Of a stretch of DNA of 64,000 nt, positions 11,190 through 62,820 are shown piece by piece. A program made the position numbers and the translations under genes. The notes under the pieces were generated by a model. The model was not told the DNA's origin. It searched no databases and saw only the letters and a program-made list of their open reading frames with translations. The number at the start of each line of letters is the position of its first letter. Positions within the stretch are counted from its first letter, which is position 1. The stretch comes from a gamma proteobacterium symbiont of Ctena orbiculata (GTDB taxonomy: Bacteria > Pseudomonadota > Gammaproteobacteria > Chromatiales > Chromatiaceae): contig QBVD01000052.1 of NCBI GenBank assembly GCA_003058525.1, positions 1 through 64,000 on the forward strand, given 5' to 3'.

Positions 11190-11200
11190 GGCGCTACTCC

Positions 11201-11713
11201 TTAGTACCGTTGTCGTATCAATCCTACTTGCATGCGGTTATGCGTGCGGGCGGCACTTTCTCCGACTCTGCCGATGGCGTCTGCCAGAAACAGGTGGGTG
11301 GTGTTGTCCAACTGGTGACCGGAGAAAAAGAGACCCTGTCTCTCTCCCAGATACTCCATCCTGAGGCTGGCCCTCTGGGGAGGCTGGTCCGCCAGGGCAG
11401 GATCCAAGGGTTCACCCTGTGGAGTTTGGGTGGAGAAAAACGGGTCAGCCTCGGTGACTTCACCGACTGTGTTGGGAATATCCAGGTTGTCTATGACGGT
11501 TAAATCCGGCCCGGTGACAATCGCCAAGGCATTCTCTGCGGCACTGAAACTCAAGCCCTTGAACTGATGATTGACCGCGACTTTAGTGTCCAGATTGGTG
11601 TTTTGCATGGCGGTGACACTGAGTAGTGTGACTATCGTGAGTATGATCAGGCTGATTACCAGGGCAGTGCCGGATTGATTGGAGACTTGTTTTTTTAGTT
11701 GAGGTGGTGACAT
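11201..11713 (-). CDS. pilX: PilX minor pilin (cassette 1)
   Basis: 170 residues. A short basic leader precedes GTALVISLIILTIVTLLSVT, the hydrophobic helix of PilX N-terminal proteins. NTNLDTKVAVNHQFKGLSFS and AAENALA follow, the usual PilX signature. It lacks the classical FTLIE, as PilX proteins do, and should be an inner-membrane minor pilin that enters the pilus. RBS GGAG lies 7 bases before ATG. pilW ends 9 bases upstream and pilY1 starts 11 bases downstream. Confidence 0.88.
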   Translation of the reverse strand: MSPPQLKKQVSNQSGTALVISLIILTIVTLLSVTAMQNTNLDTKVAVNHQFKGLSFSAAENALAIVTGPDLTVIDNLDIPNTVGEVTEADPFFSTQTPQGEPLDPALADQPPQRASLRMEYLGERQGLFFSGHQLDNTTHLFLADAIGRVGESAARTHNRMQVGLIRQRY

Positions 11714-46072: not shown

Positions 46073-49000
46073 ATGATGCATGATGCAAGCGATATTGTGG
46101 GAGAGGATCCCTCCCGGTCCTTTATCGCCCAAGTAATTAGCTGGTCGGTTCACAATCAGTTGATCGTGTTGATCTTAACCACGGCCTTGGCTGTCGCGGG
46201 TATGCTTGCGATTGATCGCACACCTCTGGATGCGATTCCCGATCTCTCCGATACGCAAGTGATTATCCGCACTGATTTCGCAGGGCAGGCGCCACAGATC
46301 GTTGAAGAACTGGTGACTTATCCGCTCTCCACCACCCTGCTAGGATTGCCAAAGACAGAAGCGGTGCGTGGTTTTTCCATGTTTGGAACGAGTTTCGTCT
46401 ACGTCATATTTCAGGATGGTGTTGATGACTATTGGGCACGTAGTCGGGTTGCTGAGGCTTTGGCGACGGTACAGAATGATCTTCCCGAAAACGCCACCCC
46501 TCGACTCGGTCCCGATGCCACAGGTGTGGGTTGGATCTACCAATATGCCCTCCTGGACCGAACCGGCCGCTATGATCTGGCCGAGTTGCGCGCGCTGCAG
46601 GATTGGTTCTTGCGCTTCGAGCTGGCAACTGTTTCCGGCGTATCTGAGGTTGCCGCTGTTGGCGGATTTGTACGCGAGTACCAAGTGCTGATTGATCCAA
46701 ACAGATTGCGCGCTTATGACATCCCGTTGGTTAGGGTACGCGAGGCGGTTGAAGCCGCCAGCATGGAGGTGGGTGGCAGGGTGTTGGAACGGGCCGAGAC
46801 CGAATTAATGATCCGTTCCCGAGGCTATGTATCAACCTTGGAGGATTTACAGAGGGTTGTGGTGCGGGCGCGTAACGGCACGCCTGTATTGATCACTGAT
46901 GTTGCCAGAGTACTGGAGGGGCCAGAGCTCAGGCGCGGGGTTGTGGAACTGGACGGTGAAGGCGAGGTTGTCGGTGGTATCGTGGTCATGCGTTCCGGAG
47001 AAAACGCGCTGAACGTGATCAAGGCAGTGAAGGAAAAGCTCGATATTCTGCGTCGAGGTCTGCCCGAAGGTGTGGAGGTCCGAACCGTGTATGACCGGGC
47101 ACCCCTGATCCGGGGTGCCGTTGATTATCTCAGCCACAAGCTGGTTGAAGAGGGAATTGTGGTTGCCCTGGTCTGCATCCTTTTCCTGTTACATGCACGC
47201 TCGGCCTTTGTCGCCATCATTACCCTACCGCTAGGTGTGCTGGGTGCGTTCACTGTGATGTCAGCACAGGGTATTACCGCCAATATCATGTCGCTCGGTG
47301 GCATAGCGATTGCGATCGGGGCAATGGTGGATGCTTCAATCGTGATGGTGGAGAACGCCCATCGAAAGCTCAGTGACATGCCAGATTCCGTGGGTCAAAA
47401 GGCGCGTAACGCAGCTATCCTGCAATCGGCCAAGGAGGTTGGACCAGGTCTCTTTTTCAGCCTCTTGATCATCACCGTCTCCTTTTTGCCTGTTTTTGCA
47501 CTGACTGGCGAAAGTTTCCGGTTATTCTCGCCGCTGGCGTACACCAAGACCTATGCCATGGCCTTTGCATCCCTGCTTTCGGTCACCATAGTACCTATTC
47601 TCATGCTTTGGCTGATCCGAGGCAGAATACGCCGTGAGGAGGCTAACCCACTAAATCGTCTCTTTGTTGCGTTGTACAAACCTGTCCTACAGTTTTCTAT
47701 GCGGGTTCGTTGGTTGACGCTGATGATCGCATTGCTGGGTATTGCCAGTCTGTGGTACCCGCTATCCAAGCTTGGCTCAGAGTTTATGCCCGCTCTCTAT
47801 GAAGGAGAATTGCTCTATATGCCGACCACATTGCCGGGTGTATCTATCACCAAGGCGAAGGAGGTCTTGGCACAGACCAACCGCTTGATTCGCTCCGTGC
47901 CCGAAGTGGAGCAGGTTTTCGGCAAGTTGGGACGGGCCGATACAGCTACGGATCCCGCACCAATATCAATGATAGAGAGTTGGATTCGCCTCAAGCCGAG
48001 GGAACTGTGGCGGCCGGAGGTGAATATAGACGAATTGATCAAGATCCTGGATCAACAGGTGAAGTTACCCGGTTTGGTCAACAGTTGGGGTTATCCCATC
48101 AAGATCAGAATGGATATGATCTCAACGGGTATACGCACGCCAGTCGGCATAAAGATATCCGGTGCGGATCTTGAAGAGATTGGGCGTATCGCACTAGATG
48201 TGGAAGCGGTAGTCAAGGATGTGGAGGGAACCCGTAGTGTATTTGCCGATCGTGTAACCGGCGGCAAATACCTGGAAATTACACCAAATCGAGATGAATT
48301 GGCGCGGAGAAATATCGATCTTGGTGTGTTTCAGTCTATTATTCAAACCGCGCTCGGTGGGATGAAAGTGGCGGAAAGTGTGCAAGGACGGGAACGATAT
48401 AACATCATTCTACGTTATGACAGGCCGTTCCGCGAATCTGTGCAGGACCTCACCGAGGTTCTTGTGCCGACACCTGGCGGTATGCATATTCCTCTCGGTG
48501 AACTGGCCGAAATCAAGTTTACCGAAGGCCCTCCTATGATCAAGTCGGAGAATGCCAGATTAACCGGTTGGGTATTTGTGGATATTGGTGAGCGTGATAT
48601 TGGCGGTTATGTGGATGAAGCGCGTAAGCTTGTGGCTGATCAAGTTACGTTGCCTCAGGGTTACGCTGTTACCTGGTCCGGTCAATACGAACAGATGCTT
48701 GAGGCGAGAAGCAACTTGAAAATCGCGATACCCGGAGCTGTTGCCATTATCCTTGTACTCTTGATGATTCATTTTGGCCGCACCGATCGTACGGTGATGG
48801 TAATGACCGCTTTACCGTTCGGCCTGGTGGGCGGTATGTGGTCGGTGTATCTTGCGGGATACAATCTTTCGGTGGCCGTGGCGGTCGGTTTTATAGCACT
48901 TGGTGGCATCGCTGTGGAGACTGCTGTGATAATGCTGCTCTATATCGATCAGCAGGTGCGTACTCTACCACCGTTGGACCGGCATCAATTGTTTGCCGCC

Positions 49001-49270
49001 ATTATGGCGGGTGCTGCTTTACGCGTTAGGCCAAAGCTTATGACCGTTTCAGTCATCATTGCCGGCTTGTTGCCAATATTTTTCACTGAGGGGCCTGGTT
49101 CTGATGTCATGCGACGAATTGCTTTGCCAATGGTGGGCGGTATGGTCAGCACTACCGTCATGACCCTTATCGTGATTCCTGTGATCTATTTAATCTGGGA
49201 GGCACGCCGGCTACCCGAGACTGTACCGACTTCTCAAAAAACCGATGAATACTCATCCAGACTGCCCTAA
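46073..49270 (+). CDS. cusA: copper/silver RND efflux transporter CusA
   Basis: 1065 residues with the RND plan: 12 membrane segments and two large periplasmic loops. TM1 lies in VLILTTALAVAGMLAI with DAIPDLSDTQVIIRTDFAGQ. Relay residues lie in AMVDASIVMVENAH; SEFMPALYEGELLYMPTTLP and MDMISTGIRTPVGIKISG carry Met-rich pump-pathway positions in the usual CusA places. RBS GAAGGA precedes ATG 46073. With the neighbours it forms the CusCBA complex that pumps Cu(I)/Ag(I). Confidence 0.96.
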   Translation: MMHDASDIVGEDPSRSFIAQVISWSVHNQLIVLILTTALAVAGMLAIDRTPLDAIPDLSDTQVIIRTDFAGQAPQIVEELVTYPLSTTLLGLPKTEAVRGFSMFGTSFVYVIFQDGVDDYWARSRVAEALATVQNDLPENATPRLGPDATGVGWIYQYALLDRTGRYDLAELRALQDWFLRFELATVSGVSEVAAVGGFVREYQVLIDPNRLRAYDIPLVRVREAVEAASMEVGGRVLERAETELMIRSRGYVSTLEDLQRVVVRARNGTPVLITDVARVLEGPELRRGVVELDGEGEVVGGIVVMRSGENALNVIKAVKEKLDILRRGLPEGVEVRTVYDRAPLIRGAVDYLSHKLVEEGIVVALVCILFLLHARSAFVAIITLPLGVLGAFTVMSAQGITANIMSLGGIAIAIGAMVDASIVMVENAHRKLSDMPDSVGQKARNAAILQSAKEVGPGLFFSLLIITVSFLPVFALTGESFRLFSPLAYTKTYAMAFASLLSVTIVPILMLWLIRGRIRREEANPLNRLFVALYKPVLQFSMRVRWLTLMIALLGIASLWYPLSKLGSEFMPALYEGELLYMPTTLPGVSITKAKEVLAQTNRLIRSVPEVEQVFGKLGRADTATDPAPISMIESWIRLKPRELWRPEVNIDELIKILDQQVKLPGLVNSWGYPIKIRMDMISTGIRTPVGIKISGADLEEIGRIALDVEAVVKDVEGTRSVFADRVTGGKYLEITPNRDELARRNIDLGVFQSIIQTALGGMKVAESVQGRERYNIILRYDRPFRESVQDLTEVLVPTPGGMHIPLGELAEIKFTEGPPMIKSENARLTGWVFVDIGERDIGGYVDEARKLVADQVTLPQGYAVTWSGQYEQMLEARSNLKIAIPGAVAIILVLLMIHFGRTDRTVMVMTALPFGLVGGMWSVYLAGYNLSVAVAVGFIALGGIAVETAVIMLLYIDQQVRTLPPLDRHQLFAAIMAGAALRVRPKLMTVSVIIAGLLPIFFTEGPGSDVMRRIALPMVGGMVSTTVMTLIVIPVIYLIWEARRLPETVPTSQKTDEYSSRLP

Positions 49271-49283
49271 GAGGATTTCGAGC

Positions 49284-49637
49284 ATGAACAAAGTAATAAA
49301 ATTGATCTCAATTGTGGTTGCCGGTGTGATTATCGCTGCTCCAGTTATAGGTGACAGCCACAGCGGCCATAGTATGCATGGTCACGGTGAAATGACGAGT
49401 AGCGCTAATCATGGTATGGGGAAGGGCGTGTTACACAAAATCGATATGGAAAACAAAATCGTCAATCTGACACACCAACCAATTCCCGAGCTCAATTGGA
49501 TGGGGATGACAATGGACTTGCCGGTTACAAGACGGGTCGACTTGTCTGGATTCAAACCAAATGACAAGGTTAACTTTACGGTAAAAAAAGGTCGTGACAA
49601 ACAGTTTCGTATTACCGTCATGGAATTGGACAAGTGA
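49284..49637 (+). CDS. cusF: CusF-like periplasmic copper chaperone
   Basis: 117 residues from ATG 49284, with GAGGATTTCGAG upstream; the frame also opens at 49245 inside cusA. Signal peptide IVVAGVIIAAPVIGDS, then a His/Met-rich arm (HSGHSMHGHGEM). The core has VNLTHQPIPELNWMGMTMDL, which aligns with the CusF His-x7-Trp-x2-Met-x-Met copper site (H, W, M, M all present). It hands Cu(I) or Ag(I) to CusB. Confidence 0.93.
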   Translation: MNKVIKLISIVVAGVIIAAPVIGDSHSGHSMHGHGEMTSSANHGMGKGVLHKIDMENKIVNLTHQPIPELNWMGMTMDLPVTRRVDLSGFKPNDKVNFTVKKGRDKQFRITVMELDK

Positions 49638-49753
49638 ATAAAGGGCGGTGAGCAAACAACCTCAACCATAACGAAGATCTCTTTGATCTGTAAAGGGTGC
49701 TGTCACAGACAAGTTGATCTTCAAAGGCATACAATGATGGCGAGGCTGCTGTA

Positions 49754-50938
49754 TTATAAAGTGGCGGTGTTTTGTTTGGTCTCGAACAGTCTCAGGCCGG
49801 CTATCAATAATGAGCCGATTATCATGATGCCGGCGGCCAGATAGAGACCGTCACTATAGCTGCCGCTACGTTCAGCCAGCACTCCCGTAATGGCAGGAAT
49901 GACGATCTGTGCAATGCCGTAGGAAATGGTCATTTTTCCCATCATTTTGGCGGGGCGGGTAGGGTAGTAGCGCCCGGCCATGGTCAGTACCAGGCTGACG
50001 ATGCCGATGAAAGTTCCGCCAAACAACAACGCCCCGGCCATCGTCATGATGGGGCTATGAGCTACCACCGGTAACAGGATGCCGACAGTCTGCAGCAGGA
50101 AGGCGATGAGCAGGGCGTTGAGATCGCCTGTTCGACGTGCCACCAGGTCCCAAAGGATACAGGCGGGCGCCGCGGCCATGCCGAGGATGAAAAAGCTCCA
50201 GGCGCCCAGCCCGTTGAGACCGGGTAATTGATCGATAATGGCTACGATAAAGGTGGCACTGACCACATAGCCCGCACCAGCACAAAAGTAAGCAGCCATG
50301 AAGAGTTGCAAAAAGCGTCGGCTGGGTGGTGTATCGACCATCACCTTACCGCTGCGTGTGACCTGGCTGGTATCGGGAGAAGGCAGCCATGCCCACGCGG
50401 GTAAAACCATCAGGGTTCCCATCAGGCTCAGCATCAACCATTGTCCACGCCAATCGAAATGGTGACTCATCAGTTCCACCGCAATGGCGCCAAACGCAAT
50501 GCCCAGGCCGACACCGCTGAAATGAATGCCCAGCTCGCTGCGATGACCGTGTCGTATGAGCCAGTTCAAAATGAGACCGGAGCCCAACAGCAGTCCCGCA
50601 GCACTGCTTAAACCTGCAACATAGCGGTAGAAGGACCAGAGCCATATGTTCTCTGTAAGTCCCATACCCAGGGTGGATACCACCGCCACGACCAGACCGA
50701 TACGATAGAGACGGTCTTTGAGTACCAGATTACTGATCAGTGATGCCGTGATAGCCCCGCTCAGATAACCTAGATAGTTGACCGCCGTTAACCAGCCTCC
50801 CTGGGAAAGTCCTAATCCGGCCTGTTCCAGCATGATCGGGAGTAGCGGTGTATAGGCAAAACGGGCAATGCCCAACATCAATATCAGGCTGATAATACCG
50901 CCAGCCAGTACTTTTAGCCGTTCAGTCTGGTTGTCCAT
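49754..50938 (-). CDS. YbfB/YjiJ-family MFS transporter
   Basis: 394 residues, 12 predicted membrane helices. The start GGIISLILMLGIARFAYTPL-LPIM and later GIHFSGVGLGIAFGAIAVEL, with AAYFCAGAGYVVSATFIVAI and MGKMTISYGIAQIVIPAITG, match the YbfB/YjiJ group of uncharacterised major facilitators. Substrate unknown. Convergent with the copper operon. Confidence 0.88.
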   Translation of the reverse strand: MDNQTERLKVLAGGIISLILMLGIARFAYTPLLPIMLEQAGLGLSQGGWLTAVNYLGYLSGAITASLISNLVLKDRLYRIGLVVAVVSTLGMGLTENIWLWSFYRYVAGLSSAAGLLLGSGLILNWLIRHGHRSELGIHFSGVGLGIAFGAIAVELMSHHFDWRGQWLMLSLMGTLMVLPAWAWLPSPDTSQVTRSGKVMVDTPPSRRFLQLFMAAYFCAGAGYVVSATFIVAIIDQLPGLNGLGAWSFFILGMAAAPACILWDLVARRTGDLNALLIAFLLQTVGILLPVVAHSPIMTMAGALLFGGTFIGIVSLVLTMAGRYYPTRPAKMMGKMTISYGIAQIVIPAITGVLAERSGSYSDGLYLAAGIMIIGSLLIAGLRLFETKQNTATL

Positions 50939-51209
50939 GTGGTGAGGTTTTTAGTACATATGATCTTAATTATATTCATTAAGAAGAGTCGTCTGAATCT
51001 GTTGTATTCAATATAACCGTTTATCGCCCATCTGATTAATGCAACATTTCACTTAGTGTGCTTTGAAATGCAGAACCAGTCCGGGAGTATAACCAAAATA
51101 TAAAAAACCTGATTAGACGTGTACTGTCCACACTGTTTTAGCGGTATTTATGTTGCAAGTTGGATCGACTTCCAAGCAAGGTGTTGATATCAGCAGATAG
51201 ACACGACAT

Positions 51210-53285
51210 TTAAGCATCAGTTTCGGTCAATCTTACTATTTCTTGGATCAAGACTTTAATGTCAACAGGCTTCTGCAAATAGATATCTGCTCCTGCATGT
51301 CTACATTGCTGTTCCGCTTCTTTCGAAATGTTAGCTGTAAGTACAATGAAGGGGATTTGTTTTTTCATCTTGTGACTTTTTTTGTATTGGCGTATGACAT
51401 CCAGTCCGCCGATGTGAGGCATCTGCATATCAAGAATTGCCAAATCAAACTCGGTTTCTTCAATTTTGTGCAAAGCGGACTCACCATCTTCGGCGAGTTC
51501 CACTTCAAATCCTGCTTTTGCCAGCAGTTCACTCAGAATTAATCGGTTAACAGCAGTATCCTCAGCTACAAGTATTTTCAACTTGTTCGGATTCTGTGTC
51601 TGGTCCCAACCATCGATTCCGTGTAGATTTTTTGAGGGGTTTGTGTCCAGAAATACTGAATGAATGGCATTGTAGAGTTGACGGTGGTTCTCCAGATCGT
51701 CAATAACAGAATCGATTTCCAAGGGGATTACTGGGAGTTGAAATCTGGCAACTGTATCTATCAGGATGATATGGATCTGTCCTCCTGTTCTTTCTTCTAA
51801 CTGGTTTGCCAGATGTTTCAAATTGATATCAACATACTCAGCGTCAACAAAAACAAGTGTCTGATGATTCGAGTTAGAGGTTGTATTTGATACAGCCTCA
51901 GCAAATTCATCAATTGTACTCACAGCATAATTGTTGATAGCCCATTGCTTCAGTGCTTGGCTGATCCTTTGATGAAATTGTGTGCTGTTGGTGTACGTGA
52001 TTGTAATATGTCCAGAATAGTGGTTTTCTTTTAAATTCGCTTGGATATCGAGAGGTAGGTCGAAAAAAAACCGTGTGCCCTTTCCCAATGTACTTTCCAC
52101 ATGAATCTCCCCGCCCATACAATTGACTAACTCTTTTGAGATTGTTGTACCCAGACCTGAGCCGCCATATTCTCTGGTAATCGAATCATCAATTTGATTG
52201 AAACGTTGGAAGATGTTTTTCAAACCCTCCTGTGAAATTCCAATACCTGTGTCTATAATATCAAACCGCAAGTTCAGCGAGGATTCAACTTTGAACAGCG
52301 GAAAGACTCTGATATCCACATAGCCCTGATGTGTAAATTTGATGGCATTGCCAATAAGGTTATTCAGTACCTGTTTGATGCGATAGGGATCTCCAATCAA
52401 GTTAAATGGTAGATCGGGCGAGATATGAGTCAGTAATTTGAGTTGTTTTTCCTGAGCAATTGGTTGAAATGAGGTGCTGACAGTTGTCAACAAGGTATGC
52501 AGGTCAAAATTCTGATATCCGATTTTAATTTTTCCGGCATCGATCTTTGACATATCAAGGATGTCATCAATTATTGTAAGCAGATGTTTTGCGGATGAAT
52601 CTATGGTTTTTATTTTTTTATCGATTCGATCTCCCAGGTTATCAGTCAATAGCAGTTGTGATATGCCGATGATACCTGTTAACGGAGTGCGCATGTCATG
52701 ACTCATGTTAGCTAAAAATCGACCTTTTGCCTGATTGGCATCCTCCGCAGCCGCGTTTGCCTCGACAAGCTGGTTGATTATCTTGGATACAAAAATAGGT
52801 ATCATAATATTGGTAATGATCAATCCGTAACCCACAATGGGGACGGATAGCCAGAAGGGTGTGGTGTTGATCACAAAGTAAAATCCTAATGTAGAAAGGA
52901 GCATGCCCAAATAGAGATAACTTGTGCCGAAACGAGCACCGTAACCAACTGTTATCCAGACCAGAACGGTAAATAGTGGGGCGCCGACCTCTCCCGCACT
53001 GTACATTGCAAGACAAGTCATAGAGTGGTCGCCTAACATTGTGACGATTTTCCGCACTATTGAACCATGTTTGACGTAGATAAAAGATAGCAGAATCAGA
53101 ATTGAGAAGAGCTCATACGCAAATGCTAATCTTGCTGCTGTAACATGGGAAATCAGCAGATAAATGAACACGATAAAAGTAAAAAATACGCGAATCAGTG
53201 CTTGCTCGCATTCCTGACGTGCTTCATCATTCAATCCTTGAGTCAAATAAGAAAAACCGGGTACTTTAAATACTTCTTGTATCAT
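51210..53285 (-). CDS. RpfC-like hybrid sensor histidine kinase with receiver domain (no HPt)
   Basis: 691 residues. The N-terminal sensor (about 20-180) has five or so membrane helices. HisKA: GRFLANMSHDMRTPLTGIIG with phospho-His196; HATPase_c: LIGNAIKFT (N box), DTGIGISQE, GGSGLGTTI (G2). A receiver domain follows at about 570-690: LKILVAEDTAVNRLIL, FDLAILDMQMPHIGG with phospho-Asp619, and VLTANISKEAE. There is no HPt, unlike RpfC and unlike the sister kinase at 54502. RBS AAGGT. RpfC-type membrane sensors detect DSF-family fatty acids; which signal this one reads is unknown. Confidence 0.9.
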   Translation of the reverse strand: MIQEVFKVPGFSYLTQGLNDEARQECEQALIRVFFTFIVFIYLLISHVTAARLAFAYELFSILILLSFIYVKHGSIVRKIVTMLGDHSMTCLAMYSAGEVGAPLFTVLVWITVGYGARFGTSYLYLGMLLSTLGFYFVINTTPFWLSVPIVGYGLIITNIMIPIFVSKIINQLVEANAAAEDANQAKGRFLANMSHDMRTPLTGIIGISQLLLTDNLGDRIDKKIKTIDSSAKHLLTIIDDILDMSKIDAGKIKIGYQNFDLHTLLTTVSTSFQPIAQEKQLKLLTHISPDLPFNLIGDPYRIKQVLNNLIGNAIKFTHQGYVDIRVFPLFKVESSLNLRFDIIDTGIGISQEGLKNIFQRFNQIDDSITREYGGSGLGTTISKELVNCMGGEIHVESTLGKGTRFFFDLPLDIQANLKENHYSGHITITYTNSTQFHQRISQALKQWAINNYAVSTIDEFAEAVSNTTSNSNHQTLVFVDAEYVDINLKHLANQLEERTGGQIHIILIDTVARFQLPVIPLEIDSVIDDLENHRQLYNAIHSVFLDTNPSKNLHGIDGWDQTQNPNKLKILVAEDTAVNRLILSELLAKAGFEVELAEDGESALHKIEETEFDLAILDMQMPHIGGLDVIRQYKKSHKMKKQIPFIVLTANISKEAEQQCRHAGADIYLQKPVDIKVLIQEIVRLTETDA

Positions 53286-54501
53286 ATCTATCGACCTTTT
53301 TTCATGCCTAACTCGCTGAATTTATGAATATTGAATAGTTAGGCATGATAGTGATCATGGTTAGTTCAAAGGCTGATTGCAGCTATGGACCTGGAATGAT
53401 ATTCTGCTTGATATCTTACCATTTAATATCAGGTAGGAGTAATAAGATCATGAAATTACTAATAAAATTACATTCATCCTAACACACTTCACTCAGTTCT
53501 TTAACGTGTCGATACGATTAGTCAGAACAATGAAGTTTGTCAGATTTGAAGAGTACAACATCATCTTAGTAAACATCATTTATTACAAATGGGTGGGAAT
53601 ACAAAATAATAGAGAAATTTATCTAGTTTTTATTAAAAACCAACGGTTATTTTCCTGACTAGGTTTCAATGTCTGACAATATATGTAGCTAGGTCCAGTG
53701 TATTTGTTCATTGATGAGGGTAGATTACCAGTATGGCATCACTGATAAGTGATTATTCTGCTTATACATAAATATGAACGCTCACTGTGTACGGTACTTC
53801 TAATATTCACACCAATAGACAGTACTGAGCATCTGTAGTAGGGCCTACTCATTTAATCCAAAGGTTACGATTCAAGGGTACTGGTATGAACAGCATAAGC
53901 GTTCAGTTGGAAAATGATGTAATATATATTGCAGTTGCGTTTGAGATTTACACTTCACCTTTGACTGTACTAATAGATTTGGATATGTAAGTGTTTATAA
54001 TTTCTGCTTTGCAGAAATTCTCCGTGCGGGTCGTACCAACTCATATCATCATACTAAAGGCTATGAGATATACAATTCGACTCACCGCAATAGGGTGGTT
54101 GACCCTGTGTTCTGACCTGTCCATGTTTAATCAACAAGTATGTCATGGAGGTGTATCTGCATCAATTTAATGGTGGGTGCATTATGAGGTTTTCGATGGG
54201 TGTCGTTACAGGGAATATATAAAATAGTCTGAAGGGACTTGATTACTCGATCCGGTTGGATATTTATATCTGGCTACAGAATGCATATGATCATTTAATC
54301 AATTAGCTTCTTCTGTAAAACGTTTTCTCATATAATACTCTTGAGTGTTGAATATGCCATTTTGCAAATAGTCAACTCATTTTCTAATAAAATATGGGTA
54401 ATCACTATCATCAAGGTTAGCGGAATGCCACTTATATTATAATTTTACACGTTAAATTATTGTAAACTTGAGATGTCCAAGATTATCAAGCGAAATGGTA
54501 G
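53286..54501. other. 1.2-kb AT-rich intergenic region between the two sensor kinases
   Basis: The two kinase genes are divergent, so both promoters should lie here. A perfect 9-bp hairpin AATTTCTGC-TTT-GCAGAAATT is at 53999-54019 without a T tract. A 34-residue frame (53886-53990, MNSISVQLENDVIYIAV...) has AAGG about 11 bases upstream; I treat it as possible but unproven. No tRNA or conserved ncRNA was recognised. Confidence 0.5.
53302..53348. promoter_or_regulatory. 12-bp perfect inverted repeat in the leader of the kinase gene
   Basis: TCATGCCTAACT (53302-53313) and AGTTAGGCATGA (53337-53348) are perfect complements around a 23-base spacer, starting 17 bases upstream of the kinase start. 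It could be a regulator binding site or an RNA hairpin affecting translation, since the RBS lies just inside it. Confidence 0.55.
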
Positions 54502-56991
54502 ATGACAGAACAAGATACCACTCGTTATTTTTCTATTGTTCAGAGGATTATTACTCGATTTAAAAATCGACCGGACTCTGAACATGAACAATCTATAGTC
54601 CGGATCGCTATTACGGTAATAGTGCTGATCTACCTTGGATTGTCGTCACTATTTGGCGAGCCTAGCGAATCTGTCAGGCATGGGCTGATTATTCTCTGCC
54701 TGTTCTTGGTGTTTTCCACATCGATTTTAGTAGCAATTGCAATCAATCCAGGCATCTCAGTCACCAGGCGGATAATTTGTATGCTTGGTGACATGGGAAT
54801 GATCTCATATCTTTTGTACTATTACGGTCAAATGATGACCCCACTCTATGTTGTATATCTATGGGTGTCATCTGGCTATGGGCTGCGCTACGGAAACCGC
54901 TATTTGGCTGCATCTACTGTGCTTGCTGCAATAGGCTTTATATTAGTAATGCGCTACAACGCAGAGTGGAGGGAGGATCCAACCACAGGTTGGAGTTTGT
55001 GGATCGGTCTAATTGTGTTGCCCATGTACATTGCCTCATTATTGGCCAAACTATCACGTGCTCTCGACGCTGCCAAATCTGCAAATGAAGCCAAAAGCCG
55101 GTTTCTGGCCAATATGAGTCATGAAATCCGTACACCTATTAATGGTGTAATCGGATTATTGGAGTTGTTAAGTGTTACACCTTTGGCGGAGAAGCAGAAG
55201 TCACTGGTACATGGGGCTCAATCATCAGCAGCTATGCTGTTGCACTTGATCAATGATGTATTGGATATTAGTAAAATTGAAGCAGGACGCATATCAATCG
55301 AATATGCTCAATTTGATTTACATGCTCTAGTAAATGGCGTTGTCGGATTATTTGATAATGAGGCAAGAAAAAAGAATCTGATATTAAAGCGAAATATTGA
55401 TCCGGCATGTCCATACTGGTTGATCGGAGATGAACTGCATTTACGCCAGGTTTTGGTTAACTTGGTTGGGAACGCTGTAAAGTTTACCAAGCAGGGGTGG
55501 GTTGAGGTGCGCGTAGAGGCCTGCAATATAACAAGTGAACGGGTGCAATTTAACATAATCGTCGAGGATACCGGGATAGGTATATCTGAAGAGGCCAAAA
55601 CCTATATTTTTGATCCATTTCGACAAGAGGATGAGAGGATTAACCGGCGATTTGGAGGCACAGGATTAGGCATGAGTATCGCCAAGCAACTAGTTGACTT
55701 GATGGAAGGGAAGCTTACGGCTTCGAGTGAGCCTGGTAAAGGCAGCCGGTTCACTTTAAATATGGAATGTCAGCGCGCTAGTACTCCTGCTAGTGTACAG
55801 TATTTGAGGTTTCCTGCCGGTATCCGTGTTGTCAGTAGTGACAGTACCTTAATCGAGACTTTGCGTGATTGGCTTGGAGAGTGGGAAGTAAGCTGTAAAG
55901 TAGACCTGGGAATTGCATTACAAACAGATTTTGACGAAACAGTTGTGCTTATTGATACACGTTGTTTGAAGGATGGAGATAAGTCGATACTAAGTAATTC
56001 CGGCCTTGCCAGTCGAGACCTGATACTGATTACTGACAATGCTCAAGAATGGCAAGATGATAGTAAATTCAACTATATCAATATACAGCCACTGCCGCTG
56101 GAACGGGAACGTTTATACAGCGTGCTACACAGTTTGCAGACTGCGTCATTCGACGAAACTGAATTACAGTCAACTCAAGATAATGCACCAGTAAAACCGT
56201 TAGTAACAGGCCATATATTAGTGGCAGAAGACAACAAAATAAACCAACGAGTAACGTGTGGATTTCTTGAGCAGGACGGGCATAAGGTGGTTGTAGTAGA
56301 TAATGGGGATGCGGCCCTTGATCAATTGGAGGCACAAGATTTTGACTTGGCGATCGTCGATATGATGATGCCTGGTCATGGAGGGCTGGATGTGGTCAAG
56401 TTATTTCGACATACACAGGGTAGTCGCACAGGCATGCCCTTTATCGTTCTCACTGCCAATGTGAGTAAGGAAGCACAGATGGCATGCGAGGACATAGGTG
56501 TTAAATATCTCAGTAAGCCACTGAGAGGAGTCGATCTAAAAGCAGAAGTTCAACAAATACTCATGCCAAGAAAGGATGAAGGATCTGGAACGAAGGTTGA
56601 ATCTATCATTGGTATCACGGGTGCTCCAATAATCGAGGAGAATATTTATCGGGAATTGGTAGAACTATTAGGCGAAGGTTCACGACTGGAGTCTACCGTG
56701 CAAGATTTCTACGATGATATCGACCAACTTATAAAGGAAATGGATTTATCAGTCAGTTCAAGTGACTGGCAAACTGTAGCAGATAATGCCCATGGCTTAA
56801 AAAGTGCTGCTGTTGGAATAGGTGCAAATCAATTAGCTGCTGCTGCCCGCAAATTGGAGGATGAAATGCGTAAAATCCCACCACGGGTCCAAAAGGACCC
56901 GCTGGCAGGAATAAATGCAGCATATCGAGCAGTACGGAACGAACTACAGTCGCGTATCACAATCCCAGGTGATTCAAGTGGCTTGTCGTAA
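54502..56991 (+). CDS. rpfC: RpfC-like hybrid sensor histidine kinase (HisKA-HATPase-REC-HPt)
   Basis: 829 residues. Five or so N-terminal membrane helices (about 30-190), then HisKA SRFLANMSHEIRTPINGVIG with His207, HATPase N box LVNLVGNAVKFTKQG and G boxes DTGIGIS and GGTGLGMSIAKQLVD. The receiver contains FDLAIVDMMMPGHGG (Asp620). The C-terminal HPt has NAHGLKSAAVGIGANQL (His764). This four-part layout is RpfC, the DSF receptor kinase. It is convergent with the RpfF-type gene, overlapping by 18 bp, as in Xanthomonas where rpfF and rpfC are convergent. No RpfG (HD-GYP) gene is in the window. Confidence 0.88.
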   Translation: MTEQDTTRYFSIVQRIITRFKNRPDSEHEQSIVRIAITVIVLIYLGLSSLFGEPSESVRHGLIILCLFLVFSTSILVAIAINPGISVTRRIICMLGDMGMISYLLYYYGQMMTPLYVVYLWVSSGYGLRYGNRYLAASTVLAAIGFILVMRYNAEWREDPTTGWSLWIGLIVLPMYIASLLAKLSRALDAAKSANEAKSRFLANMSHEIRTPINGVIGLLELLSVTPLAEKQKSLVHGAQSSAAMLLHLINDVLDISKIEAGRISIEYAQFDLHALVNGVVGLFDNEARKKNLILKRNIDPACPYWLIGDELHLRQVLVNLVGNAVKFTKQGWVEVRVEACNITSERVQFNIIVEDTGIGISEEAKTYIFDPFRQEDERINRRFGGTGLGMSIAKQLVDLMEGKLTASSEPGKGSRFTLNMECQRASTPASVQYLRFPAGIRVVSSDSTLIETLRDWLGEWEVSCKVDLGIALQTDFDETVVLIDTRCLKDGDKSILSNSGLASRDLILITDNAQEWQDDSKFNYINIQPLPLERERLYSVLHSLQTASFDETELQSTQDNAPVKPLVTGHILVAEDNKINQRVTCGFLEQDGHKVVVVDNGDAALDQLEAQDFDLAIVDMMMPGHGGLDVVKLFRHTQGSRTGMPFIVLTANVSKEAQMACEDIGVKYLSKPLRGVDLKAEVQQILMPRKDEGSGTKVESIIGITGAPIIEENIYRELVELLGEGSRLESTVQDFYDDIDQLIKEMDLSVSSSDWQTVADNAHGLKSAAVGIGANQLAAAARKLEDEMRKIPPRVQKDPLAGINAAYRAVRNELQSRITIPGDSSGLS

Positions 56992-57882
56992 ACTATTCTG
57001 AGGCAGTTCTGCCAGTTTAGCCGCTCGTTTGTTCTGTGCCCGTACGAGTCGTTGCATGACGTTGATTTCGTTTTGACGCAGATTAAGTGCCGCGTCTACC
57101 CACTGCGTTGTAATACCCAAAAGTTCCTCGTACGGAACGCTGTTGTAGTTCTGGCGTACATGGCGCAGAAGTTTAAGGGCATTTGTGCGGCGTTGAGCCG
57201 TGCGGATATAGTTTGACAGCGCAATATCTCCGGCGCCTTCGTCAGCTAATATATCGATAACACCAAGGTCATATAGGGTTTCTGCTGTGTAAAGATCACC
57301 ACTATAAATCAATCTTTCTGCGAGACTCGTACCGACACGACGCGATAAAAAGCTGTATGCCCCCATACCTGGAAACATGTTGAACAATACTTCGGGAAAG
57401 CCCAGGTGGGTTCCACGTTCAGCGATAATGACATTGCACGAAAGGGCTGCCTCGAAGCCTCCTCCCTGGGCATTTCCCTCCACCAATGCGATAGTAGTGA
57501 CGGGTTGACCAAGATGGCTGTGAAATCCATAAGCTCCATCTATACAGGCTATTGCGTAATCCATCAACTTCTCTCGATCACGTTGTTCTATGAGCTCTAC
57601 AAATAAGGCTAAGTCCCCGCCCAAATTAAAGGTTTGCTCATCTCCGGAAGCAAACACGATATATCTCCAGTCTGAGTGTCCCTTGGTTTGATAATCCACT
57701 CTAATAGTTTGAGTCATGTGACTCTGAAAAACGCGTATATCGTCTAACAGGGTAGGAGTGAAACAGGGTCTGGGGTGTGGTTGCATGCGAAAAACTGCTG
57801 TTCCAAGTGATGCGTTCAAGTGAAGCGTTGCCTGCTTTAGAGATGGTTTTTGGTTGATAGACGCTAAATTGACGGTTTCCAT
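56974..57882 (-). CDS. rpfF: DSF synthase RpfF (crotonase family)
   Basis: 302 residues from ATG 57882, with CGAGGT upstream; the frame goes on to 57915 but without a good site. Crotonase fold: SGDEQTFNLGGDLALFVELI, LVEGNAQGGGFEAALS with Glu144, and HLGFPEVLFNMFPGMGAYSF with Glu164. The two glutamates, 20 residues apart, match the catalytic pair Glu141/Glu161 of Xanthomonas RpfF, which acts as both dehydratase and thioesterase on 3-hydroxyacyl-ACP to make cis-2-unsaturated fatty acid signals. The PEVLF-FPGMGAYSF segment is specific to RpfF among crotonases. Neighbouring kinases fit. Confidence 0.93.
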   Translation of the reverse strand: METVNLASINQKPSLKQATLHLNASLGTAVFRMQPHPRPCFTPTLLDDIRVFQSHMTQTIRVDYQTKGHSDWRYIVFASGDEQTFNLGGDLALFVELIEQRDREKLMDYAIACIDGAYGFHSHLGQPVTTIALVEGNAQGGGFEAALSCNVIIAERGTHLGFPEVLFNMFPGMGAYSFLSRRVGTSLAERLIYSGDLYTAETLYDLGVIDILADEGAGDIALSNYIRTAQRRTNALKLLRHVRQNYNSVPYEELLGITTQWVDAALNLRQNEINVMQRLVRAQNKRAAKLAELPQNSLRQAT

Positions 57883-58766
57883 TGGGTACCTCGATAGTTG
57901 ATCTGATTCTCTCATTGGGTTATGGAATACCGGGCTGACCGGTATTGCTATCCCAGAGTATATATAATGAAGGGAAAGGGGGATTGAGGTTAAGGGGAGG
58001 GATATGAAAAAGCGTGACCAATTGCCATCGATCAGTTAAATCTATTCTAAACGTATAAAATTTATACACTTAGGGGCTGGGATAATGCACACATATGGGT
58101 TTATCTGATTACCACGCATTCTCCTGCTATCTGCGGCATCCAGTAATTTGCGGATTAGTTGTATCTGGGGCAGAGGGATTAGCAGAATCAGAATGGTATA
58201 TTCAGTCCCATAGAAGCGGGCTTTACTGAAATCGTTACGTCACCCTATCTATGAATAAATGATTACACCACCAAGCTAGTGTAAGCCAAGATTAGTCGAA
58301 GAGGGGTAGTTCCTGCATCAATTTTTTAGGATTGTGATGTCGGCTACCAATGATCATCAAATTCGGTTCTTATTCGTTGTGTAACCTTGAATCGTAATTG
58401 GTCCTAATTTTGGGAGGAATAAATCTCCCCAAATTCAGATAATGGCGACTCTGTAACGTCTGGGTGTCCGGCTGGATGTGCCCTAGGAGGGGATTGCTGT
58501 TGGTATTTTCTTACCTAGGCTAAGATTTAAAGTAGGCTTGCGTTTATCGTTTGGTGGTGGCTTGGTGATCTCATCAGATTCGTGACCATCTTTTGTTTTA
58601 TTTAATAAACAAATAGTTATATATCATATTTAATGTTGTTTAGTGGGTAGCTGTTTTTTTGGCTATTTTTTTGTGCGCTAACACCACTAACCAGACATCT
58701 GTTAGCGCAGAACATTTAATTACTCGTGAATTAGGGATTTGTCAAACGCTTGAGAGGAGAACACTT
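57883..58766. other. 880-base intergenic region between rpfF and cfa
   Basis: Promoters for rpfF (minus) and cfa (plus) should be here. It contains the dyad at 57926-57946, a perfect 15-base palindrome GTATAAAATTTATAC at 58053-58067, and a hairpin AATTTTGGGAG / CTCCCCAAATT (58406-58435, 1 mismatch). No convincing gene: the frame leading into cfa from 58659 has no RBS, so the real start is 58767 (GAGGAG). Confidence 0.5.
57926..57946. promoter_or_regulatory. perfect 8-bp dyad just upstream of rpfF
   Basis: AATACCGG (57926-57933), 5-base spacer GCTGA, CCGGTATT (57939-57946). It lies 44 bases before the rpfF start, downstream of an AT-rich TATATA-like element near 57958-57966, so it could be an operator overlapping the leader or an mRNA hairpin. 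Which regulator would use it is unknown. Confidence 0.6.
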
Positions 58767-59978
58767 ATGCCTTTCGAGAATATCAATCACGGCTTGCACA
58801 ATGGACCACGGAAAGAAATTGCGCCTCCCAAGGTCTTAGTTGATCTGCTTGCCCAGGCGGATATCCAATTCAACGGTAGTCGACCCTGGGATATTCTAGT
58901 ATATGATGATTCACTGTTCAAACGTGTGTTGACTCGGGGCTCACTCGGTTTTGGTGAAGCCTACATGGATTGTCTATGGGGCTGTGCAGCAATGGATGAG
59001 TTGTTTACCCGGTTAATGGCTGTTGGTATCGAAGAACAACTTGCCAGCTGGTTCAAATTTCGCATGCTAGTTGAAATTGTCCGGCAATATCTATTCAATC
59101 TGCAGTCAATCCAGCGAACCTTCCAGGTCGGTGAACGGCACTATGATATCGGTAACGATATCTTTGAGGCCATGCTCGACACCAGTATGACTTACTCTTG
59201 TGGCTATTGGGAGTCTGCCGACAATTTGGAATTGGCACAACAGGATAAATTAGAATTGATCTGTCGCAAGTTACAGTTGCAACCAGGTGAGCGATTACTC
59301 GAAATAGGTTGTGGATGGGGCTCCCTGATGCAATATGCGGCAGAGCATTTTGGTGTCAGCGTTGTGGGTGTCACGGTGTCTAAAGCACAACAACAAAGAG
59401 TCCGGGAACGCTGTAAGGATCTTCCTGTCACGGTTGAACTCAAGGACTACAGGGAAATTACAGGCAGCTATGACAAGGTGGTATCCGTAGGCATGTTCGA
59501 GTATGTAGGCCACAAGAACTATCGCACCTATTTCCATACCGTAGACAGATTGCTCAGGGATAACGGTTTGTTCCTGCTGCACACGATCGGCCAGAACAAA
59601 ACAGCGAAGACATTAGATCCCTGGATAGATAAATATATTTTCCCCAACGGTAAACTGCCTTCTGCACAGGAGATAACGCAATCCCTGGAATCTGTGTTCC
59701 TGATACAGGATTGGCACAATTTCGGACCGGACTATGACCGAACATTAATGGCCTGGTGGCATAATTTTGACCATGCCTGGCCTGAGCTGCGTAAGCACTA
59801 TGACGAACGTTTTTATCGCATGTGGAAATACTATCTGCACTCATGTGCCGGTTTTTTCCGCAGTCGCCAGGGGCAGCTTTGGCAACTAGGGCCTGTTAAC
59901 ACTAATCCAATCGGCTCTGTTGTGTCTGAAAATGCGCCAATCAAGGCGCGAGGAGTGAGGTTTGGTGATTCCAAATGA
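58767..59978 (+). CDS. cfa: cyclopropane-fatty-acyl-phospholipid synthase
   Basis: 403 residues from ATG 58767, with GAGGAG upstream; the open frame begins at 58659. Motifs: HYDIGNDIFEAMLDTSMTYS-CGYW, then SAM site LLEIGCGWGSLMQYAAEHFGV, KDYREITGSYDKVVSVGMFE (bicarbonate/active-site region) and YIFPNGKLPSAQEI. It methylates double bonds of membrane phospholipids with SAM. Conserved sequence stops at FFRSRQGQLWQ; the last 30 residues (PVNTNPIGS onward) are encoded inside an inverted-repeat element (59885-60157), replacing the usual C-terminal tail. Confidence 0.95.
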   Translation: MPFENINHGLHNGPRKEIAPPKVLVDLLAQADIQFNGSRPWDILVYDDSLFKRVLTRGSLGFGEAYMDCLWGCAAMDELFTRLMAVGIEEQLASWFKFRMLVEIVRQYLFNLQSIQRTFQVGERHYDIGNDIFEAMLDTSMTYSCGYWESADNLELAQQDKLELICRKLQLQPGERLLEIGCGWGSLMQYAAEHFGVSVVGVTVSKAQQQRVRERCKDLPVTVELKDYREITGSYDKVVSVGMFEYVGHKNYRTYFHTVDRLLRDNGLFLLHTIGQNKTAKTLDPWIDKYIFPNGKLPSAQEITQSLESVFLIQDWHNFGPDYDRTLMAWWHNFDHAWPELRKHYDERFYRMWKYYLHSCAGFFRSRQGQLWQLGPVNTNPIGSVVSENAPIKARGVRFGDSK

Positions 59979-60157
59979 GTGACGAGCAACGCCGAGTGGC
60001 GCATTTTCAGGCACAACCCGAAGGGCTGGGGCTGTTTTTCCACCCAGCGGCGTTATCATTCGCTCATTTAGCACGGCTAAACCTCGCTCATTCTGCCTTG
60101 CTGGGTAAAAAAACAGCTCCAGCAGAGCCGATTGGATTAGTGTTAACAGGCCCTAGT
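59885..60157. mobile_element. 273-bp MITE-like inverted-repeat element inserted in the cfa 3' end
   Basis: Perfect 35-bp inverted arms at 59885-59919 and 60123-60157, starting ACTAGGGCCTGTTAACAC. A CTAG could be the duplicated target site. Within it a second inverted pair (GTGTCTGAAAATGCGCCA, about 59920-59937, and TGGCGCATTTTCAGGCAC, about 59997-60014; 1 mismatch in 18) and a third (GGGCTGTTTTT... and ...AAAAACAGCTCC) fold into smaller hairpins. It carries no transposase. The left arm and first hairpin are read as the C-terminus and stop of Cfa. Confidence 0.85.
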
Positions 60158-60303
60158 ACTGAATAAACGTCAGTGTGAGGGTGTTTACCGCTCGGTGCGT
60201 TGACAACAATTGGATAGATCTGGTTGAGCAACAGATAAAAAAAGCGCCACAATGTGGCGCTTGAATAGCCTGTTTTTAGTCTTTCTACAAAGTGTTTTTT
60301 TTA
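59979..60303. other. cfa-fccB intergenic: element right half and fcc terminator
   Basis: The gap between convergent cfa and fccB contains the rest of the inverted-repeat element (to 60157), a short stretch possibly left over from the old cfa 3' end, and the terminator at 60237-60262. I see no gene. Confidence 0.6.
60237..60262 (-). terminator. intrinsic terminator of the fcc operon
   Basis: On the minus strand the hairpin AAGCGCCAC-ATT-GTGGCGCTT is perfect over 9 bp, and a run of seven Ts follows. It lies about 40 bases after the fccB stop. Confidence 0.9.
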
Positions 60304-61590
60304 TCAGGTGAACATATCTGAGGTGATATTCTTGAACCAGCTGCGCGCATACTGCGCCTCGATGGCTCTTGTCTCAGCGGATGCATCCATTGGCGAAAGA
60401 CCTCCGGCACCTTTGACACCGACGATCTTACCGTTAACCAATTGGTAGACAGCAGCTACCGAGATGCCCCAATCAGGTGTGATGATGCTGTAACAGGTGT
60501 TCACATAGGAGGGTTCGCCCGGTGCCTCACCGTTAAGCGCAGCGACAATGGCGGCGGCGCAGACCTTACCCTGTGAGTTGGCGGCATAGCCTGACTTGGG
60601 CATCTTGCCGGCAATACTGGCGTCACCGATGACGTGCACATCCTTATGGATCTTCGATTCGAATGTACTCTGGTTGACCGGACACCAGCCGGAATCATCG
60701 GTCAGTCCGGCGACTTGTGCGATCTTACCCGCCTTCTGTGCCGGGATAACATTGAGGACATCGCCTTTGTACTCGTCTACCTGTCCGACCAGAGTCATGT
60801 TGTCTGGATCGATTGCTTCGATGATACCGCCGTCGGCGCCACTAACCCACTCGATGGTATCGCCATAGAACTTCTTATAGCCCTGCATGAAAAGGCCCTG
60901 TTTGGAGAACTTATCCTTGGCGTCCAGGATAATGACCTTCGACTTGGGTTTGTGATGCTTGAAGTAGTGGGCGATCTGTGCAGCACGCTCATAGGGACCT
61001 GGTGGACAGCGGAAGGGATTGGGTGGCGCCGCGATATAGCAGACACCGCCATCCTTCATGGCCATGAGCTGTTTATGCAGGAGAGTGGTTTGCGGACCCG
61101 CCTTCCAGGCGTGGGGAATCTTCTCCGCCACGGCCGCACTGTGACCCTCGATCATTTCAAAACGGAAGTCGATGCCTGGGGAGATCACCAGTTTGTCGTA
61201 CTGGTACTGGTTACCGCCGGCACCCTTGACGGTATGGTTGGCCGCATCGATCTCCACCACTTCGTCGTGCACCACTTCGACATTGTGGTTCTGATTCATG
61301 GCCTTGTAGTTGAATGTGATGCTGCCGATATCCCGTTCACCACCCAGCACCTCGTTGCTGAGGGGGCAGGAGACATATTGGGTATTCTTCTCGATCAGCA
61401 TGACATCGATCGAGGGATCGGCCTTTTTAATATATTTAGCGGCGATAGCGCCACCGTAGCCGCCACCGATCACAATCACCCGCCCTTTGGCACCTTTACC
61501 GAATGATACCGGGCTGAATGAAGCGACGCTACCCAGTGCTGCACATGCGCCGGTGGCTTTGATAAATTTTCTTCGTGTTAGTCTGGCCAT
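60304..61590 (-). CDS. fccB: flavocytochrome c sulfide dehydrogenase, flavoprotein subunit
   Basis: 428 residues from ATG 61590 (GGGGAGAG upstream); ATG 61605 is also in frame. A Tat signal, RLTRRKFIKATGACAALG, points to export in folded form. FAD domain: GRVIVIGGGYGGAIAAKYI, then TQYVSCPLSN, where the Cys (76 here) corresponds to the covalent FAD attachment cysteine of the family. Redox cysteines of the disulfide lie in FRCPPGPYERAAQ and GWCPVNQSTFES. It oxidises sulfide to elemental sulfur in the periplasm and passes electrons to the haem subunit. The fccA gene is 11 bases upstream. Confidence 0.96.
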   Translation of the reverse strand: MARLTRRKFIKATGACAALGSVASFSPVSFGKGAKGRVIVIGGGYGGAIAAKYIKKADPSIDVMLIEKNTQYVSCPLSNEVLGGERDIGSITFNYKAMNQNHNVEVVHDEVVEIDAANHTVKGAGGNQYQYDKLVISPGIDFRFEMIEGHSAAVAEKIPHAWKAGPQTTLLHKQLMAMKDGGVCYIAAPPNPFRCPPGPYERAAQIAHYFKHHKPKSKVIILDAKDKFSKQGLFMQGYKKFYGDTIEWVSGADGGIIEAIDPDNMTLVGQVDEYKGDVLNVIPAQKAGKIAQVAGLTDDSGWCPVNQSTFESKIHKDVHVIGDASIAGKMPKSGYAANSQGKVCAAAIVAALNGEAPGEPSYVNTCYSIITPDWGISVAAVYQLVNGKIVGVKGAGGLSPMDASAETRAIEAQYARSWFKNITSDMFT

Positions 61591-61601
61591 TGCTCTCCCC
61601 C

Positions 61602-62270
61602 TCATTTCTCGCTCAGATAGTAGTGAGCCATGGCTTGCAACTCTTTCTGAGAGAGTTCGGCGACTCGTTTACCCATTTTTCTCGGCAGACAGCGCCGGCC
61701 TTTCTTGTGGCAATCCTTCAGGTAGATCATTGTGTAATCCGGCCACTGCCCAGCCAGCCGGGGAGCATCGTCCTCCTGAACTCTGCCGCCATCTTCATGG
61801 CATGTTTTGCACCGCTTTTCATGTATCTTTTTACCTATAGCAGCCAGCTTTTTGTCAGCTTTGGCGGGACTGGAGACCCAAGGCTGGCTGGCGATATAGG
61901 AAGCGATCGCCTTCAACTCATTGTCGGAGTAACCTTTGGCAATCCGGCCCATGATGGTCGAGTCCCGCTCGCCACTCTTGAACTCGGCCAGTACCAGCTG
62001 CATATACTCCTTTTCCATACCGCCGATGATCGGCATAGCATCGCCGGCGCTGGCACCGTCGGTTCCATGACAGCCGGCACATGTATTGGCAAGCATGCTG
62101 GGGGAACGGATACCTGGTGGCTTGGCGGGGGCCATCTCAGCCGCAGGTTTGGCTGCAGTTTTGGCACTCTCTTTTTTCATTGCGCTGTCGGTGGTGCTGC
62201 AGCTCGACGCCAGCCAGCCAAACATCACGCCAACGAAGAGTGCCGTTGACAGTTTTCTGTTTATTTTCAT
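61602..62270 (-). CDS. fccA: diheme cytochrome c subunit of flavocytochrome c sulfide dehydrogenase
   Basis: 222 residues. Two class I haem sites: NTCAGCHGTDG (Cys64-His68) and KRCKTCHEDGG (Cys154-His158), with Met ligands likely in MPIIGGM and KMGKRV. A signal sequence ends in LASSC (Cys24), which could be a lipobox, and an Ala/Lys/Pro-rich linker of about 35 residues follows. It is the electron acceptor subunit for FccB. The linker and possible lipid anchor are longer than in the soluble Allochromatium protein, so membrane tethering is possible. Confidence 0.92.
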   Translation of the reverse strand: MKINRKLSTALFVGVMFGWLASSCSTTDSAMKKESAKTAAKPAAEMAPAKPPGIRSPSMLANTCAGCHGTDGASAGDAMPIIGGMEKEYMQLVLAEFKSGERDSTIMGRIAKGYSDNELKAIASYIASQPWVSSPAKADKKLAAIGKKIHEKRCKTCHEDGGRVQEDDAPRLAGQWPDYTMIYLKDCHKKGRRCLPRKMGKRVAELSQKELQAMAHYYLSEK

Positions 62271-62296
62271 GAATATCTCCTCAGGTGGACTGTGGC

Positions 62297-62740
62297 TCAG
62301 TGTCCGGATTGTCCGGATCTTTGATCGAGCCAGGCCAGTACTTTATCGATATCTTGCTGTTTCGACGGACCCAGCTGCTCCGCTTCTTTCAATGCCTCTC
62401 TGGCCAGCGTGTAGCGGCCCAGATGCAGGTAGGCGACAGCCAGGCCGACGAAGGCATCCGCATTGTTGCGATCCAGCATGATCGCTTGTTGAAAACGCTT
62501 GATGCCGGACTTGTAGTCGCGTTGCAGCAGTTCCACGCCACCGAGCCGTGTATGGGCATGTGAAGATTGAGGGTCTGTCTCAACCGCTTTCACCAGTATA
62601 GCGTGCGCATCGTCAAGATTACCCGATTCGGACAATGCCTGTGCATCCGCAATCAACTGTTCGACACTCTCTTGTGCGATGGCGGTCGAGAAGCCCATGC
62701 TGAGCAAGACCGTCAGTAGATAGATGAGTTGTCTCCCCAT
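62297..62740 (-). CDS. exported TPR protein
   Basis: 147 residues with a signal peptide (MGRQLIYLLTVLLSMGFSTAIAQ). Three TPR units: LIADAQALSESGNLDDAHAI, AHTRLGGVELLQRDYKSGIK and DAFVGLAVAYLHLGRYTLAR. Periplasmic scaffold, possibly for assembly of the nearby cytochromes. The stop is 26 bases before fccA, so probably one operon with fcc. RBS AGGGG. Confidence 0.85.
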   Translation of the reverse strand: MGRQLIYLLTVLLSMGFSTAIAQESVEQLIADAQALSESGNLDDAHAILVKAVETDPQSSHAHTRLGGVELLQRDYKSGIKRFQQAIMLDRNNADAFVGLAVAYLHLGRYTLAREALKEAEQLGPSKQQDIDKVLAWLDQRSGQSGH

Positions 62741-62764
62741 GAATGACCCCTATACAGGAAGATG

Positions 62765-62802
62765 AAAAAAAGACCCCCTCAGGCTGTGAGGCCTGAAGGG
62801 GT
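62765..62802 (-). terminator. intrinsic terminator after the HAO-like gene
   Basis: On the minus strand ACCCCTTCAGGC - loop - GCCTGAGGGGGT forms a 12-bp stem with one mismatch, followed by CTTTTTTT. It starts about 20 bases after the stop at 62821 and separates this gene from the fcc genes. Confidence 0.93.
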
Positions 62803-62820
62803 ATGCAGCATTAAAGGAAT

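Follow-up and report, generated by a model that had tools for sequence, protein, structure and literature searches.

In Xanthomonas, signalling through the diffusible signal factor (DSF) follows an established relay from the activated receptor kinase RpfC to RpfG, with a lowered level of cyclic di-GMP (c-di-GMP) as the outcome. Among Gram-positive bacteria, strain-variable synthase-receptor cassettes on conserved flanks are found at pherotype loci such as agr and comQXPA, which the locus described here resembles in this respect; those loci use peptide signals, and the retention of a receptor of the other type is not known to be part of their scheme. Within the single species Stenotrophomonas maltophilia, two RpfF/RpfC alleles, rpf-1 and rpf-2, have been described, with cross-talk between them and with horizontal exchange proposed; each strain carries a single RpfF/RpfC combination, and no retained receptor of the other type without its histidine phosphotransfer (HPt) domain is described there (PMC4517397). 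DSF components have also been found in sulfur oxidisers, namely RpfC/RpfG in Thiolapillus brandeum (PMC4136832) and complete systems in Acidithiobacillus, with two RpfC copies in five acidophile genomes (PMC9040811); the available parts of these two reports show neither a haplotype swap nor HPt loss. Here we describe the DSF locus in a window of 64,000 nucleotides (contig QBVD01000052.1, assembly GCA_003058525.1) from a symbiont of Ctena orbiculata belonging to Candidatus (Ca.) Thiodiazotropha. One synthase, RpfF_B, stands beside two RpfC-family hybrid kinases, of which kin2 carries an HPt domain and kin1 does not. The best reading, which we favour at somewhat better than even odds, is that of a recently swapped DSF pherotype: a quorum-sensing locus with two alternative haplotypes, in which kin1 is a retained receptor for the signal of the other type. 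Gene content, orthology, catalytic residues, haplotypes that exclude each other on near-identical flanks and constraint on the HPt-less forms come from the sequence data; the chemistry of the signals, the ligand specificities, phosphotransfer in trans, the c-di-GMP output and the listening role are what we infer.

The locus resembles the rpf locus of Xanthomonas in that its RpfF has two catalytic glutamates, that an RpfC-type kinase with HPt and with the canonical residues before the first transmembrane helix (TM1) is convergent with rpfF, and that an RpfG of the REC-HD-GYP type is encoded in the genome. It differs in that RpfG is unlinked and stands beside a third RpfC-like kinase, that an extra HPt-less kinase lies in the locus, and that a cyclopropane fatty acid synthase-like (CMAS-type) methyltransferase gene adjoins rpfF. 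The full-length RpfC-like kinase kin2 (54502–56991, plus strand, 829 aa) has its phospho-acceptors H207, D620 and H764 in the order sensor-HisKA-HATPase-REC-HPt. Its HPt domain (56698–56937, plus strand; PF01627) scores 39 bits against a Pfam cut-off of 24.6, and His764 was located by alignment. In kin1 (51210–53285, minus strand, 691 aa), HisKA and HATPase are followed by REC, directly after which the frame ends; downstream of it neither an HPt coding sequence nor a remnant of one was found. The two kinase genes are separated by 1.2 kb of AT-rich, non-coding DNA (53286–54501), of which only about 105–120 bp 5' of kin2 can be aligned to relatives, and this gap contains no rpfF_A or rpfF remnant. 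The gene rpfF_B (56974–57915, minus strand, 313 aa) overlaps kin2 by 18 bp. The kinase and RpfF matches are complete and multi-domain, and chance is ruled out. An initial annotation, made from the DNA letters, had proposed a DSF synthase-receptor locus with one RpfF and two RpfC-family kinases, an HPt domain in kin2 only, kin2 and RpfF convergent, and kin1 and kin2 divergent. Its domain assignments agree with Pfam, and its gene content and orientations hold, as does the RpfF gene itself; the end given for RpfF at 57882 does not, being a later start codon of an open reading frame (ORF) that reaches 57915. The annotation was also right about a sulfur-oxidising, host-associated organism, but DSF signalling in a sulfur oxidiser, which it thought would be notable, is anticipated by the DSF genes of Thiolapillus and Acidithiobacillus.

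The DSF genes lie in a strain-variable block (51101–59885), delimited by its flank identity to a closed, single-contig, conspecific genome (G056) and by low GC content. Window and G056 are 98.8% identical over 47071–51100 and 99.8% identical over 60154–64000. Across the roughly 9 kb between these flanks the identity is 71–87% and the order is rearranged; the divergence is taken to end near 59885 because a shared repeat (99.6%) makes up the final 272 bp of the match on the right. The GC content of the block is 42.6% in the window and 43.2% in G056, compared with 52% for the remaining window, and an Rfam search of the block gave zero matches. Read in the orientation of the window, G056 has an MFS gene, kin2 without HPt (701 aa, plus strand), kin1 with HPt (856 aa, minus strand), the synthase RpfF_A (plus strand) and the CMAS gene. 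The order in the window is MFS, kin1 without HPt, the 1.2 kb gap, kin2 with HPt, RpfF_B and the CMAS gene. Ca. T. endolucinida COS (G009) has the same synthase and the same two kinase forms as G056. The haplotypes, A in these two genomes and B in the window, are exclusive, and they are mirror images, since each retains the HPt-less form of the other's receptor.

Synonymous divergence (dS) between the window and G056 is 0.003 in the flanking MFS and FCC genes, compared with 0.53 in the CMAS gene, 0.54 in kin2 and 2.2 in kin1. Between G056 and G009, dS is 0.12–0.20 in haplotype A and 0.13–0.16 in the flanks. Considering this resemblance of block to flanks, haplotype A was inherited and haplotype B of the window arrived after the split from G056. 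We hold this evolutionary part of the proposed mechanism with high confidence. Mixed strains in a metagenome-type assembly could also give the appearance of mirror-image haplotypes: the 4.74 Mb assembly consists of 112 contigs, the right block edge coincides with a repeat of which there are dozens of copies, and the contig of another genus member, G005, stops within its rpfF_B. Such an artefact is nevertheless highly improbable, as the block lies inside a 107 kb contig (C8), contamination is 0.08%, rpfF_A is not found elsewhere in the assembly, and haplotype A is present both in the closed G056 and in G009. Furthermore, G005 gives independent evidence: an RpfF_B, of which the contig end leaves the first ~88 residues, stands beside the CMAS gene and is oriented as in the window.

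The best PDB relative of RpfF_B is Xanthomonas RpfF (3M6M, E = 1.3e-67). The four top-ranked matches, 3M6M and 6DGN (named RpfF) with 7ZQ7 and 5FUS (same family), have E ≤ 1.5e-53, and the fifth is far weaker (1e-13). The catalytic glutamate pair reported in the initial annotation is confirmed: E155 (57451–57453) and E175 (57391–57393) align with residues 157 and 177 of the 3M6M chain, which we take to be the catalytic E141 and E161 of Xanthomonas (a tag offset of 16 by our own numbering). The RpfF stretch that it had pointed out is present as well (PEVLFNMFPGMGAYSF, including PGMGAYSF). RpfF_B passes the broader crotonase model PRK08788 with 345 bits (cut-off 177) and stays below the NCBIfam RpfF equivalog cut-off (NF053515; 263.5 versus 550 bits), which appears to be set for a narrower group. 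The crotonase of the window groups inside the RpfF family; a position outside it would, by the initial annotation, have refuted the locus. The RpfF_A sequences of the genus form one clade (100/100) with RpfF_B outside it, and monophyly of RpfF_A and RpfF_B is rejected in the careful tree (approximately unbiased (AU) test, p = 0.0016). Alternative RpfF/RpfC alleles within one species are a feature shared with Stenotrophomonas (PMC4517397), but the synthases here are far more different (42% amino acid identity between RpfF_A and RpfF_B) and the retention is reciprocal.

For the REC domains of kin1 and kin2 alike, the best PDB match is the RpfC REC in the 3M6M complex (chain 3M6M_D for kin2). In the kinase tree, kin1 is nested inside the full-length RpfC_A clade (99 support), and kin2 is the sister of the HPt-less kinases from G056 and G009 (100 support); from these positions, the HPt losses in kin1 and in the G056/G009 kin2 are independent. 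The orthologs of kin1 in the genus adjoin RpfF_A in divergent orientation. Five residues before TM1 of Xanthomonas RpfC, R15, D17, S18, E19 and Q22, are required for DSF sensing, and S18 is replaceable by Thr alone (Cai et al. 2017, PMC5391125). In the alignment with Xanthomonas RpfC, the motif RPDSEHEQ of kin2 (54568–54591, plus strand) matches all five, whereas the type A motif EARQECEQ of kin1 (53202–53225, minus strand), aligned with residues 15–22, has equivalents of E19 and Q22 only. This motif type is common to kin1 and its RpfF-linked orthologs, with A-type kinases carrying (D)EARLEYEQ. Since A-type kinases adjoin RpfF_A, the type A motif is probably suited to a different ligand or to a different way of binding. 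Simple hydropathy gives four transmembrane helices in kin2 and three in kin1, the RpfC criterion being five.

The idea of two receptors for the same signal, raised in the initial annotation, must be judged against these data. Both kinases would read the RpfF_B signal and kin1 would borrow the HPt of kin2, giving two inputs and one relay, as might be expected from the shared locus and RpfC-type anatomy, from the intact phospho-accepting His and Asp of both kinases and from the position of the HPt-bearing kin2 next to kin1. However, the kin1 orthologs of the genus stand divergent from a different synthase clade, kin1 is without equivalents of D17 and S18, which are essential in RpfC of Xanthomonas campestris pv. 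campestris (Xcc), and HPt-less kin2 is kept in G056 and G009, which have no RpfF_B. We therefore consider a common signal unlikely, and unsupported in the form proposed. As the ortholog of an RpfF_A-adjacent kinase with a different sensor motif, kin1 is more likely to derive from a receptor for a different signal.

The loss of both HPt and RpfF_A could also mean that kin1 is a decaying remnant, in which rpfF_A was lost first and HPt next, on the way to a pseudogene. The kin1 branch is about four-fold longer than those of its full-length sisters (0.29 versus 0.06–0.07), and in Ca. T. endolucinida COS a single frameshift near residue 246, either real or a draft error, breaks rpfC_A (L047 4986-7554) in two. 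Against decay, which we rate as quite unlikely, the kin1 frame is open over 691 codons with its catalytic residues intact, and its sensor and kinase domains are still 76–82% identical to those of G056 kin1. The parallel HPt-less kin2 is retained in two species with a dN/dS of 0.196 between the G056 and G009 copies, and the HPt-less kinase kin4 is retained in at least 7 genomes. An alignment of seven distinct HPt-less kinases shows the phospho-accepting His and Asp in every one of them. For kin1 the dN/dS is 0.086, but dS is saturated and part of the history is that of a full-length gene. Compared with its haplotype A counterpart, kin2 of the window is 94% identical in the sensor, 97% in DHp and 76% in the linker.

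A decoy role was considered as well. In Xcc, binding by the RpfC REC blocks RpfF (as cited in PMC4517397), and by this precedent an HPt-less kinase might be a decoy whose REC sequesters RpfF in an inactive state, phosphotransfer not being its role. The best match of both RECs to that of the RpfF-RpfC complex would agree with such a function. We find it distinctly improbable, however, because the kin1 REC stems from the partner of RpfF_A, which is 42% identical to RpfF_B, and because a pure decoy would need no His, Asp or ATPase domain.

The relation between HPt loss and synthase adjacency was examined in kinases collected via rpfF and via this genus, a non-random sample, with HPt presence scored by alignment to the kin2 His. 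Among complete kinases lying no more than 2.5 kb from an rpfF, in the genus and in other proteobacteria, the HPt histidine is kept in 50 of 50. About five HPt losses are seen on the tree, where HPt-less kinases occupy 0/33 rpfF-adjacent rows and 13/25 other rows. This offers a testable rule, by which a synthase-adjacent kinase retains HPt and an orphan may lose it. Tentatively, each strain could possess an HPt kinase for its own signal and an HPt-less receptor for that of the other pherotype, HPt loss marking the step to a listener, which some five kinases of the genus would have taken independently, in each case without an adjacent synthase. The L162 and L167 kinases, candidates for HPt-less kinases near rpfF, were ruled out; they are short, yet HPt is present. 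A second one-synthase, two-receptor layout was noted at L049 (G029) 5325-11682, with one rpfF between two kinases that both have HPt.

We propose that in haplotype B, rpfF_B would make a DSF-type fatty acid and that its convergent partner kin2 (RpfC_B) would sense this signal through the membrane. At high signal, kin2 would autophosphorylate and pass the phosphate via REC and HPt to the unlinked core RpfG, resulting in lower c-di-GMP. As a former RpfC_A receptor whose rpfF_A is absent here, kin1 has lost HPt and kept sensor, kinase and REC; it most likely listens for the type-A signal from neighbouring strains or species. Its REC would then pass phosphate to an HPt in trans, a possible supply for which the third RpfC-like kinase, kin3, is a second candidate donor besides kin2. 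Strains of haplotype A hold the mirror image, with RpfF_A, a full RpfC_A and an HPt-less RpfC_B, so that strains may listen to each other's signals. The listening function of kin1 we put at slightly less than an even chance.

Several observations weigh against this proposal. The sensor-motif rule is derived from Xanthomonas, and it may not carry over to type A. The fast kin1 branch, a 9-residue gap near TM1 and the altered pre-TM1 motif indicate that kin1 may be decaying or retuned. A larger, quick tree leaves the monophyly of RpfF_A and RpfF_B unrejected (p = 0.073), and the complete B haplotype is present in one genome only. HPt is retained in some kinases without an adjacent rpfF, and when HPt loss and rpfF adjacency are compared over independent pairs, all of these point the same way but are too few (p ~0.06).

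RpfG is absent from the window, as the initial annotation had stated, and the search elsewhere in the genome found a REC-HD-GYP protein on contig C39 (523–1692, 389 aa; REC and HD_5, with HDIGK and GEGYP motifs). It occurs in 21 of 22 genus genomes and, in those inspected, is adjoined by kin3, an 833 aa kinase that has the HPt His; the part of the system for reception and output is therefore core to the genus. RpfF is found in 16 of the 22, namely the window genome, G005 and 14 genomes with RpfF_A. It is absent in six members (G004, G010, G012, G013, G014 and G018), of which all except G012 keep RpfG; these five are possible receive-only species. Also in the rpfG gene pair is an RpfC-like protein of 636 aa without a kinase domain (L042:1689-3599, plus strand, on C39), with orthologs at L196:2717-4627, L200:2991-4910 and L201:3962-5872. 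In 4/4 genomes examined, Asn replaces the REC Asp of this protein and Gln replaces its HPt His ('DQAQILLDSAGQLGA'). On these substitutions we regard the protein as conserved and catalytically dead, and this TM-REC-HPt-like protein was ruled out as an HPt donor.

Allelic rpf variants with cross-talk and DSF genes in sulfur oxidisers are known already; in the open-access literature we found no report of DSF in Ca. Thiodiazotropha or of reciprocal HPt-less receptors. If the pherotype reading is true, DSF signalling gains strain-specific dialects like those of peptide systems, together with a genetic record in which one can see how a self-sensing receptor turns into one for the signal of a neighbour. 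As several Ca. Thiodiazotropha types co-inhabit single clams (PMC13167027), the signal could influence coexistence in a gill.

The CMAS-type methyltransferase gene (58659–59978, plus strand; PF02353, 315.8 bits) lies inside the block and adjoins rpfF in both haplotypes; its product could alter the fatty acid signal or membrane lipids. In other gammaproteobacteria, genes read from their sequence as FabF-like ketosynthases lie beside rpfF/rpfC (L162:5312-6685, L167:7825-9219, L054:10964-12169 and L055:12990-14201), and dedicated chain-length control of the signal is a possible role. The ~272 bp repeat at the right block edge (59886–60157) has two pairs of 24-nt inverted arms and encodes the final residues of the CMAS ORF. 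It is dispersed in dozens of full or partial copies, many at contig ends; it is not at the corresponding site of G009 and also occurs 5' of rpfG (C39:222-491). Directly beside the block-edge repeat, G056 has a small ORF (L187:5046-5474) starting MRQVESLSHTRWECKYHIVF, which by eye we take to resemble an IS200/REP-type transposase.

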